This document shows positions 39,225 through 40,127 of a stretch of 64,000 nucleotides of DNA, piece after piece. Position 1 is the stretch's first letter, and every line of letters begins with the position of its first letter. This DNA comes from an uncultured Flavobacteriaceae bacterium. GTDB taxonomy: Bacteria; Bacteroidota; Bacteroidia; Flavobacteriales; Flavobacteriaceae. A program made the translations under genes and the position numbers. Location: contig CALKOU010000009.1 in the NCBI GenBank assembly GCA_938092005.1, forward strand, positions 1-64,000, read 5' to 3'. The notes beneath the pieces were generated by a model. The model saw nothing but the letters and a program-made list of their open reading frames with translations. It did not search any database and had not been told where the DNA came from.

Positions 39225-39308
39225 GGAGAGGTGCCAGAGTGGTAATGGAGCAGATTGCTAATCTGTCAACGCGTAAGTGTTGCCTGGGTTCGAATCCCAG
39301 TCTCTCCG
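39225..39308 (+). tRNA. tRNA-Ser (GCT)
   Basis: 84 nt class II tRNA. Acceptor GGAGAGG pairs with TCTCTCC plus discriminator G; anticodon arm GCAGA-TTGCTAA-TCTGT gives anticodon GCT (AGC/AGU codons). It has a long variable arm typical of tRNA-Ser and a standard T arm with GGTTCGAATCC. The 3' CCA is not encoded. Confidence 0.95.
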
Positions 39309-39317
39309 CAAGAATTC

Positions 39318-39378: not shown

Positions 39379-39447
39379 GACCCGATTGCTCAGCTGGATT
39401 AGCGCATTCCGATTTCCAATCGGAACGGTCAAGGTTCAAAAGAGCAA
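39379..39447 (+). pseudogene. tRNA-like remnant 1 (anticodon-loop TCC)
   Basis: The order D arm (GCTCAGCTGGATTAGCGC), anticodon arm (TTCCGA-TTTCCAA-TCGGAA) and CGGTC is tRNA-like. However, the D stem mispairs (GCTC with GCGC), the T arm is ruined (AAGGTTCAAAAGAGC) and the acceptor strands do not pair. I read it as a decayed tRNA whose anticodon loop would carry TCC. Its anticodon arm is nearly the same as that in the remnant at 39779. Confidence 0.6.
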
Positions 39448-39458
39448 CAAAAATTAAC

Positions 39459-39532
39459 GGTCGCGTAGCTCAGCTGGATAGAGCATCTGCCTTCTAAGCA
39501 GACGGTCCTAGGTTCGAATCCTAGCGCGATCA
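39459..39532 (+). tRNA. tRNA-Arg (TCT)
   Basis: 74 nt. Acceptor GGTCGCG pairs with CGCGATC plus discriminator A; D arm GCTC-AGCTGGATA-GAGC; anticodon arm TCTGC-CTTCTAA-GCAGA with anticodon TCT (AGA codon); intact T arm CCTAGGTTCGAATCCTAG. No CCA encoded. From base 39502 onward its 3' part belongs to the duplicated unit with the GIY-YIG gene, whose ATG is only 12 bp further on. Confidence 0.95.
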
Positions 39533-39544
39533 CTACACCCCATC

Positions 39545-39787
39545 ATGTTCATCGTCTATATTCTATATTCAAAATCATTAAACCGTTATTACACTGGACA
39601 TACTGCCAATATTCAAGACAGACTTTTAAGACACAATAACGGAAGAAGCAAGGCTACCAAAACAGGTGCGCCCTGGGTAATCGTTTATACAAAAATGTTT
39701 AATACTAAATCTATTGCTTACAAAAGAGAACTGGATATTAAAGCAAAAAAGTCAAGAATATATATTGAAACGTTAATTGCTGGATAG
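39545..39787 (+). CDS. Small GIY-YIG nuclease, copy 1
   Basis: 80-residue single-domain GIY-YIG protein of the UPF0213 type. The motif pair is VYILYS (residues 4-9) and YYTG (15-18), followed by conserved Arg in DRLLRHNNG and the metal-binding Glu in YKRELDIK near residue 64. Proteins of this class are nicking or cutting nucleases related to homing endonucleases and the UvrC N-terminal domain. It starts 12 bp after tRNA-Arg and has no promoter of its own visible, so it may be read from the tRNA transcript. Its last two codons and stop (GCT GGA TAG) coincide with a tRNA D-loop sequence. Copy 2 is about 94% identical (five changes). Confidence 0.88.
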   Translation: MFIVYILYSKSLNRYYTGHTANIQDRLLRHNNGRSKATKTGAPWVIVYTKMFNTKSIAYKRELDIKAKKSRIYIETLIAG

Positions 39788-39840
39788 CGCATTCCGATTT
39801 CAAATCGGAACGGTCCTAGGTTCGAATCCTAGCGCGATCA
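39779..39840 (+). pseudogene. Chimeric tRNA remnant 2 (anticodon-loop TCA)
   Basis: Starts inside a D loop (GCTGGATAGCGC) and continues through an anticodon arm (TCCGA-TTTCAAA-TCGGA) to an intact T arm and 3' acceptor strand identical to tRNA-Arg. The 5' acceptor strand and 5' D stem are absent, replaced by the end of the nuclease gene. The anticodon-arm half matches remnant 1, the T-arm half matches tRNA-Arg, so it is a mosaic. It cannot form a cloverleaf alone. Confidence 0.75.
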
Positions 39841-39852
39841 CTACACCCCATC

Positions 39853-40095
39853 ATGTTCATCGTCTATATACTATATTCAAAATCATTAGACCGTTATTAC
39901 ACTGGACATACTGCCAATATTCAAGACAGACTTTTAAGACACAATAACGGAAGAAGCAAGGCTACCAAAACAGGTGCGCCCTGGGTAATCGTTTATACAG
40001 AAATGTTTAATACTAAATCTATTGCTTACAAAAGAGAACTGGATATTAAAGCAAAAAAGTCGAGATCATATATCGAAATGTTAATTGCTAGATAG
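39853..40095 (+). CDS. Small GIY-YIG nuclease, copy 2
   Basis: Second 80-residue copy, 308 bp downstream of the first. The differences I read are Asn13Asp, one Lys to Glu, and Ile to Ser, Thr to Met and Gly to Arg near the C-terminus. All catalytic-motif residues (VYI, YTG, Arg, Glu) are kept, so the copy may be active. Its 5' side again has the tRNA-Arg 3' end and the same 12-bp spacer. On its 3' side the D-loop sequence has decayed (GCTAGATAGTGCATT) and no anticodon arm follows. Convergent with the HD phosphodiesterase gene. Confidence 0.86.
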   Translation: MFIVYILYSKSLDRYYTGHTANIQDRLLRHNNGRSKATKTGAPWVIVYTEMFNTKSIAYKRELDIKAKKSRSYIEMLIAR

Positions 40096-40127
40096 TGCAT
40101 TTAGATAATTTACGGAATTCTTGAAAT

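Follow-up and report, generated by a model that had tools for sequence, protein, structure and literature searches.

What kind of element leaves two nearly identical copies of a small nuclease gene standing between pieces of one and the same tRNA gene? The question is posed by positions 39,379 to 40,117 of a 64,000-nt stretch of DNA from an uncultured Flavobacteriaceae bacterium (contig CALKOU010000009.1 of assembly GCA_938092005.1, positions 1 to 64,000 of the forward strand; the whole stretch is called the window hereafter), where two genes for GIY-YIG nucleases follow a tRNA-Arg gene. With a probability of about 0.7, I take this locus to be a mobile unit of minimal size, ~300 bp, resident in tRNA genes; it consists of one 80-amino-acid GIY-YIG product and an altered partial copy of the host tRNA, here written tRNA*. 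In the unit's tRNA*, one arm is usually replaced or split by a palindrome. The reading draws directly on the anatomy of the loci, the shared orientation of gene and tRNA, the partial tRNA copy, the fidelity of protein clades to isoacceptors, the allele states found within the genus, and purifying selection on the gene.

Anatomy of the window locus

The two nuclease genes lie in a direct repeat, each repeat holding the tRNA 3' part, a 12-bp spacer, the gene and a tRNA D-arm, at a spacing of 308 bp (Table 1). The initial annotation had given this composition and this period, and both were seen again in the two copies; its unit length of 292 bp has to be corrected to 297 nt. The spacer CTACACCCCATC stands directly 5' of both start codons, and both stop codons are supplied by the terminal tRNA D-arm (GCTGGATAG and GCTAGATAG). 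The first tRNA-Arg is whole, and of this tRNA and the copy between the genes only the latter is partial: it runs from a D-arm piece through the perfect hairpin TTCCGATTTCAAATCGGAA (39792-39810), which occupies the position of the anticodon arm, into the native variable loop, T-arm and acceptor 3' strand. With 297 nt repeated at 96% identity and E-values of 1e-15, the pattern is no product of chance, and the two copies are probably the ordinary tandem amplification of one unit.

A further, decayed tRNA-Arg copy upstream carries nearly the same hairpin as the tRNA*, and the pattern YYCCGATN5ATCGGRR occurs in the window's own genome solely at these two hairpins; another palindrome class, TCCCGAN{2,14}TCGGGA, has three matches there. 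By eye, an upstream tRNA-Arg-like hairpin copy was seen in 10 of the 13 genomes of the genus in which the Ser-Arg stretch is visible (2 degenerate); in these copies the hairpin is mostly retained and the remainder decaying, and genome G001 has a tandem pair. The window's own genome holds two further, distant family members, one directly upstream of tRNA-Ala(GGC) and one downstream of tRNA-Met(CAT).

Table 1. Features of the tRNA-Arg locus and its GIY-YIG genes, in window coordinates
Feature	Coordinates	Strand	Evidence
tRNA-Ser(GCT), neighbour on the upstream side	39225..39309	+	ARAGORN; Rfam tRNA 56 bits
Extra tRNA-Arg copy, decayed; anticodon arm replaced by hairpin TTCCGATTTCCAATCGGAA (39407-39425)	39379..39449	+	sequence; 31-nt repeat family D4
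tRNA-Arg(TCT), intact	39459..39533	+	ARAGORN; Rfam tRNA 71 bits; identical in gene-free relatives
Tandem unit 1, 297 nt	39502..39798	+	direct repeat search
Spacer, 12 bp, CTACACCCCATC, first	39533..39544	+	sequence; identical to 39841-39852
GIY-YIG nuclease gene copy 1, 80 amino acids; stop codon within tRNA D-arm	39545..39787	+	PF01541 E 3e-15
Altered tRNA-Arg copy (tRNA*) between the genes	39779..39841	+	sequence, repeat search; Rfam 39783-39840, 30 bits
Tandem unit 2, 297 nt, 308 bp after unit 1 and 96% identical to it	39810..40106	+	direct repeat search
Spacer, 12 bp, second	39841..39852	+	sequence
GIY-YIG nuclease gene copy 2, 80 amino acids	39853..40095	+	PF01541 E 1.6e-15
Last tRNA copy, decayed end (D-arm GCTAGATAGTGCATT...)	40087..40117	+	sequence, repeat search

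Relatives beside tRNA genes and their altered tRNA copies

Homologous loci were collected from the window's own genome and 59 relatives (19 of these 60 with a match), from public genome contigs (24 loci) and from 296 Bacteroidota genomes, which contributed 29 automatic loci and 80 regions taken from the best hits rather than from every listed row. Before counting, 29 of 251 open reading frames (ORFs) were removed as duplicates and 30 of the remaining 222 as shorter than 60 amino acids, with some residual redundancy (L041/L042). Loci L056-L087 were excluded from the tRNA-proximity scan, having been retrieved by tRNA or hairpin sequence and not by protein.

The family is present in 188 of the 296 Bacteroidota genomes (E 1e-10), and the number of hits per genome ranges from 0 to 18 inside one host family. 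ARAGORN placed a tRNA within 100 bp at 113 of 147 homologous loci, on the strand of the gene in every one of the 113 (4 of these nearest calls being labelled 'SeC' or '???', i.e. altered copies), as against none of 30 within ~400 bp of the match, and 1 of 30 within 1.5 kb, for uvrC as a control in the same phylum. The initial annotation had named such an enrichment beside tRNAs as its first check, and the counts bear it out. Tandem arrays with a period of 300-400 bp recur in many genomes, for example as five copies with a 315-bp period in G350, and several paralogues may share a genome, each at its own tRNA (Asn, Asp, Ser(GCT), Pro(CGG) and Cys in G244). One family member without a nearby tRNA, L020 in G023, begins ~400 bp downstream of a transfer-messenger RNA (tmRNA) gene. 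Members were also found in metagenome-assembled genomes (MAGs) titled Parcubacteria (0.9 Mb, 7 members), Yanofskybacteria (0.8 Mb, 11 members) and Cloacimonadota (4 members), and the copy of tRNA-Ser(GCT) in Parcubacteria (L050) has the same build, with a palindrome in the D-arm.

Gene and tRNA are arranged in one of two ways. Type-A loci (for example Arg TCT, Lys, Val, Asp, Gly, Met, Asn) start with the intact tRNA, which is followed by the gene and then by an altered copy of the same tRNA, and in type B, for example (Arg TCG/ACG, Ser GCT) an altered 5' tRNA part is followed by the gene and then by the intact tRNA; Ala loci of both types were found, and at type-B Ala loci the stop codon of the gene is the TAG at tRNA positions 8-10. 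Matching the one nearest tRNA to the far side of the gene (score of 15 or more) in 112 arrays with a tRNA within 110 bp, 83 of them type A and 29 type B, recovered a partial copy of the same tRNA at 87 loci, compared with 10 of 336 comparisons for tRNAs of other amino acids and 3 of 98 for distant flank. Part of the tRNA is thus duplicated across the gene, as the initial annotation had proposed for its rebuilt tRNA, but its picture of a nuclease gene standing in for the 5' half of a tRNA does not hold in general: some loci have a nearly whole second copy (L026, L040, L043, L044, L099), and in many copies it is the anticodon, T- or D-arm that is replaced or split by a palindrome. Some type-A loci also have ~100 bp of trailer that is nearly identical on both sides (L041). 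ARAGORN labels the altered copies at L009, L024, L026 and L031 as selenocysteine tRNA, tRNA-SeC(TCA); a real tRNA-SeC or UGA suppressor with anticodon TCA was ruled out, the arm in question being the palindrome of an altered copy, and tRNA-SeC(TCA) calls in Bacteroidota may be false.

At 81 of the 112 loci the match consists of two ordered tRNA blocks separated by a gap of 12-50 nt, and in 70 of these the gap holds a palindrome, defined by a perfect arm of at least 5 bp; of the 87 partial-copy loci, 61 have such a palindromic insert. The commonest build is TCCCG...CGGGA, and the position of the palindrome often goes with the isoacceptor. Type-A Lys copies have the anticodon arm replaced with the loss of exactly 17 nt (6 of 6 loci with two matched blocks), a loss that is also usual in Val, type-A Ala, Pro(CGG) and the one Gln locus, and type-A Asp copies lose 8 nt of the T-arm (6 of 8 such loci); in type B, the D-arm insert of Arg(TCG) sits at 22|23 without loss (4 of 4 loci), and the insert of Ser(GCT) also lies in the D-arm without loss (3 of 3). 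Of 88 distinct inserts, 2 of which (L043 B, L194 B) are native arms viewed from the altered copy, 73 pair perfectly over arms of 5 bp or more, as opposed to 10% in shuffles, and 75 fold with z below -2. The letters of the stems vary and the pairing is kept, which suggests that structure matters, and their 637 Watson-Crick pairs against only 9 G-U pairs would point to DNA rather than RNA as the form in which it does.

Some palindromes stand in other settings. G037 (3.4 Mb) carries 104 CCTGCC-N-GGCAGG palindromes, with 17 or fewer in each of 39 other genomes searched. In L293 (G122) three tandem copies each have their GIY-YIG gene interrupted by the 18-bp palindrome TCCCGATAGCTATCGGGA (432-449, 835-852 and 1238-1255), and in the first copy the gene parts flanking it are in different frames. 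Palindrome-bearing tRNA copies in stretches with no GIY-YIG gene were seen in G149 and G207 (L278, L280, L279, L277, L281), as tandem units of 72-86 bp next to intact tRNA-Arg(CCT) and tRNA-Ala(GGC), as a single copy next to tRNA-Asn, and at a contig end (Ser-like, by eye). The idea that the nuclease spreads such palindromes in the manner of repetitive extragenic palindromic (REP) elements was also considered. The copy number of TCCCGA-N-TCGGGA goes with the number of GIY-YIG genes (rho 0.47 over 295 genomes; -0.14 for a reversed-pattern control), and a permutation within families gave 1 of 1000, with within-family rho from -0.32 to 0.39; the idea is weakened by this wide range, by counts that include the units themselves and by the sampled palindromes away from tRNAs described below, and it is no more than a lead.

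Each protein clade stays, for the most part, with a single isoacceptor. In a tree built from 111 proteins (a small number of columns, 65, all N-terminal, the tRNA-overlapping C-terminus being left out; 59 of 107 inner branches open), the isoacceptor, with 23 labels, requires 44 changes, compared with a mean of 87.9 and a minimum of 81 in 200 shuffled trials. Host family, with 21 labels, requires 58 changes on the same tree against 75.7 when shuffled, so that the tree follows the tRNA label more closely than the host family. A host family that tracks the tree better than chance is what would favour an ordinary origin, in which an immobile GIY-YIG gene arose once beside a tRNA and was passed on by tandem duplication and vertical descent, and the recurring 300-400 bp arrays and the shared descent of loci within the genus fit this as well. 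Against it stand the many isoacceptors occupied, the clades that cross host families, the paralogues each at a tRNA of their own, and the empty orthologous sites described below; altogether, I regard such an origin as quite improbable. The many tRNAs occupied agree with the tRNA-inserting unit of the initial annotation, but since clades mostly keep one isoacceptor, the jumps between different tRNA genes that it also envisaged look uncommon.

Empty, filled and decayed alleles within the genus

Among 16 relatives of the same genus, 7 have a match to the family, and a single orthologous place, the tRNA-Ala(GGC) locus, was compared in 11 genomes. It is empty in G011, G012, G013 and G016 (for G013 and G016 with the upstream side alone visible, as their contigs stop within the tRNA), filled in G007, G008 and G000, the last with a decayed tandem copy in addition, and decayed in G001 (a pseudogene) and in G002, G003 and G009 (remnants). 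The flanks align across hundreds of bases at 70-94% identity: a HAD-like gene (by eye) lies upstream in G012, G013, G008, G000, G001, G002, G003 and G009, and an extra gene precedes the tRNA in the filled G007 and the empty G011 and G016. A second genomic site for the G007 unit, and with it a jump to another tRNA-Ala gene, is rejected, since by the alignment of its flanks the unit occupies this very locus, with the extra gene added. In the filled allele, tRNA positions 1-28 are doubled and the left copy is split by one palindrome (G008) or two (G000, G007). The comparison of close relatives that the initial annotation had called for has yielded both empty and filled alleles, and the simple tandem repeat that it had kept as an alternative, which probably accounts for the window's two-copy state and suits the recurring arrays, is improbable as a whole explanation.

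At the tRNA-Arg locus, the gene is present in G000, G001 and G009 and truncated in G002, and decayed pieces were seen in G007, G008, G010 and G012 (all partly by eye); in G003 a copy of the gene stands at a contig end, with the tRNA outside the visible stretch. The T-stem of tRNA-Arg(TCT) in the genus (L056-L068) differs among close species, with both sides changed (CTAGG, ATAGG, ACAGG, GAAGG). In G000, G001 and G009 both tRNA-Arg 3' parts begin the T-stem alike. Taken with the variation among species, this may be a sign that the 3' part of the tRNA has been exchanged. An empty allele could also be regained exactly if the duplicated tRNA pieces recombined with each other, for which reason gain and loss are not separated in these comparisons.

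The nuclease, its proposed mode of action and known systems

The window protein belongs to the GIY-YIG superfamily (PF01541 E 3e-15), and GIY-YIG chains lead its fold search. Residues Y5, Y16, G18, R26, H30, E62 and K66 are invariant in 27 sequences, of which I take the Tyr, Arg and Glu residues to be the catalytic ones. According to the domain search and an AlphaFold2 model (predicted local distance difference test, pLDDT, 91), the 80 amino acids make up the catalytic domain alone, with no separate DNA-binding domain. The best solved relatives by profile are UPF0213 (COG2827) structures (E 1e-15 for 1zg2, and 1.5e-12) and SLX1 (7cq2, 2e-6), with I-TevI more distant; by fold they are the SLX1-like 7wme (Z 8.3) and SLX1 6seh (Z 7.7), and Foldseek returned 1zg2 alone below E 0.001. 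The fold scores are middling, none of them above Z 8.3, and more weight therefore falls on the sequence profile. A scan of the window protein against NCBIfam models gave no match. A phage origin was rejected on a search of phage records, in which no more than 13 matched at E 1e-3, each with less than 60% identity and none from a T-even phage.

The gene is under purifying selection. Among 19 pairs of different loci, 11 yield a value of dN/dS, the ratio of nonsynonymous to synonymous divergence (dS is saturated in the other 8), and 10 of these values fall at 0.08-0.26; the exception, at 0.70, is a pair inside one genome with very few differences. Copies 1 and 2 of the window differ by dN 0.032 and dS 0.061, a ratio of 0.53 on few changes. 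Selection of this kind would also be expected if the nuclease served the host by acting on tRNA or tRNA-gene structures, be it in quality control, in the repair of stalled forks or as a toxin with the tRNA* as a decoy RNA antidote, the palindrome then being an RNA hairpin; tRNA* copies without a nuclease likewise exist, and the same-strand position would allow the tRNA promoter to drive the gene. Such a host function is nevertheless unlikely, in view of the patchy and often decayed presence within one genus, the spread of 0 to 18 hits per genome, and the avoidance of G-U pairs in the palindromes.

For the mobile tRNA-gene unit favoured here, the following course is proposed. The nuclease would break the DNA within the tRNA sequence or close to it, and recombination that relies on identical tRNA parts would copy the unit next to the tRNA, such that an intact tRNA would be retained and the displaced part would persist as tRNA*. 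Unequal recombination between the repeated tRNA parts might subsequently produce tandem arrays, as in the window, or exact loss. As for the substrate, my guess slightly favours a predicted cleavage of hairpin or branched DNA at the tRNA* over a sequence-specific cut of the intact tRNA, on account of the UPF0213/SLX1-like fold, the nearly perfect palindromes and the unchanged carrier tRNA.

A sequence-specific cut is central to the classical alternative, a free-standing homing endonuclease of the SegB kind (discussed below) that cleaves the empty tRNA allele, spares a resistant carrier and is copied by double-strand-break repair. Several features accord with it: the nuclease gene adjoins its presumed target, of which both empty and filled alleles exist, and the decay and remnants resemble a homing life cycle. 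Yet the carrier's full tRNA is unchanged, and the trailer of L041 is nearly identical on both sides, meaning that a site inside the tRNA would still be cut, and the protein consists of a catalytic domain alone; ordinary homing, moreover, is not known to involve tRNA duplication or palindromes. Homing in this strict form therefore appears doubtful.

A number of observations weigh against the mobile-unit reading as well. The weak point is carrier immunity: the carrier tRNA-Arg of G000, G002 and G009 is that of G006, G012 and G015, so insertion does not destroy a cut site inside the tRNA, which would stay cuttable under homing, although the site might extend into the flanks. The empty tRNA-Arg relatives G006 and G012 have possible remnants (by eye), and empty alleles may accordingly be losses. 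The tRNA-Ala next to the decayed unit has itself been cut after base 45 by another element in G001 and G002; this element has an integrase, seen in the G002 stretch (L206) as a match to PF00589, the phage integrase family (E 2.7e-7), and G001 (L207) has a near-identical frame. The sample consists of best hits to the query or to the profile, is not random and is biased to near homologues. Of the 147 loci, 34 have no tRNA within 100 bp, 13 of them having one at 102-315 bp and ~8 lying within 100 bp of a contig end, and in a check of five further genomes (two Patescibacteria, one Cloacimonadota and two further MAGs; 30 loci) a tRNA lay in the locus for just 18 of 33 ORF rows, either because the link is looser there or because ARAGORN misses more. 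No clear partial copy was found at 25 of the 112 loci, 26 of the 87 partial-copy loci have no palindrome by the arm rule, and the position of the palindrome is variable within Asn, Cys, Ser(GGA) and Pro. Among the TCCCGA-TCGGGA matches listed, 13 of 20 sampled places have neither tRNA-like sequence nor GIY-YIG gene. Lastly, the existence of tRNA* copies without a gene suggests that palindrome editing may be a separate process.

If the mobile-unit reading is right, the window locus is about the smallest conceivable protein-coding mobile unit, set inside the most conserved of genes with one copy left working. Given its presence in 188 of 296 Bacteroidota genomes, the family could explain many short GIY-YIG genes, odd partial tRNAs and false tRNA-SeC(TCA) calls, and the covariation of protein and isoacceptor would form a natural data set on target choice by small nucleases. 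More tentatively, these units could be a separate class of mobile DNA: ~300-bp parasites of tRNA genes, known from Bacteroidota and from two or more Patescibacteria, that each encode one SLX1-like GIY-YIG protein and carry a palindrome-edited decoy of the host tRNA whose hairpin would be the nuclease's own substrate, forming isoacceptor-bound lineages that move by break and copy and leave one tRNA intact. The gene-free tandem tRNA* copies, including the one at 39379-39449, would then be its non-autonomous form.

No description of a tRNA-linked GIY-YIG unit in Bacteroidota was found in a literature search that spanned neither preprints nor most subscription journals. Among systems that combine some of the same parts, REP sequences are small palindromes tied to a nuclease-type gene, the REP-associated tyrosine transposase (RAYT), an HUH enzyme; the window gene belongs to the GIY-YIG and not the HUH (Y1) nucleases, and the palindromes here sit in tRNA copies. 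SLX1 proteins are longer chains that were solved together with SLX4, compared with the 80 amino acids of the window protein, and I know of no tRNA link for the solved UPF0213 proteins. Integrative elements with tRNA attachment sites rebuild the tRNA and leave a fragment at their other end. They carry an integrase, unlike the window unit, in which the only ORF per 308 bp is the 80-amino-acid one matching PF01541 alone. A related archaeal case has been described (PMC3293823).

By its description, SegB of T-even phages resembles the window unit in being a free-standing GIY-YIG nuclease within a tRNA cluster (PMC2988022). According to PMC13096335, SegB is enriched near tRNAs and promotes the tandem amplification of a segment, and in phage T6 a SegB-dependent segmental amplification of the tRNA region yields tandem repeats. 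As in a SegB-type system, the nuclease gene here stands beside its presumed target, with empty and filled alleles; the loss of the intact target from the carrier allele was not seen, provided that the site lies in the tRNA. SegB is phage-borne and, according to the same paper, shows no tRNA isotype preference, whereas the window family is chromosomal with clades that follow isoacceptors; the excerpts seen make no mention of a palindrome-bearing partial tRNA copy. The MORFFO elements of fern plastomes consist of other ORFs, in plastids, and the part of the source at hand mentions neither an isoacceptor-bound nuclease nor an edited tRNA copy.

The fungal mitochondrial mORFs (Allomyces atp6; Glomus atp6, atp9, cox2 and nad3) share with the window unit one gene kept whole plus a displaced copy. 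An endonuclease ORF enters an essential gene and brings a replacement 3' part, with the displaced copy staying in place (PMC3630166). A corresponding arrangement, in which the endonuclease ORF separates the intact tRNA gene from a displaced piece of that tRNA, is found at 87 of the 112 loci examined here. In the mORFs, the hosts are mitochondrial protein genes and the nucleases mostly LAGLIDADG; here, the hosts are tRNA genes, the replacement may be 5' or 3', and a palindrome sits in the displaced copy.

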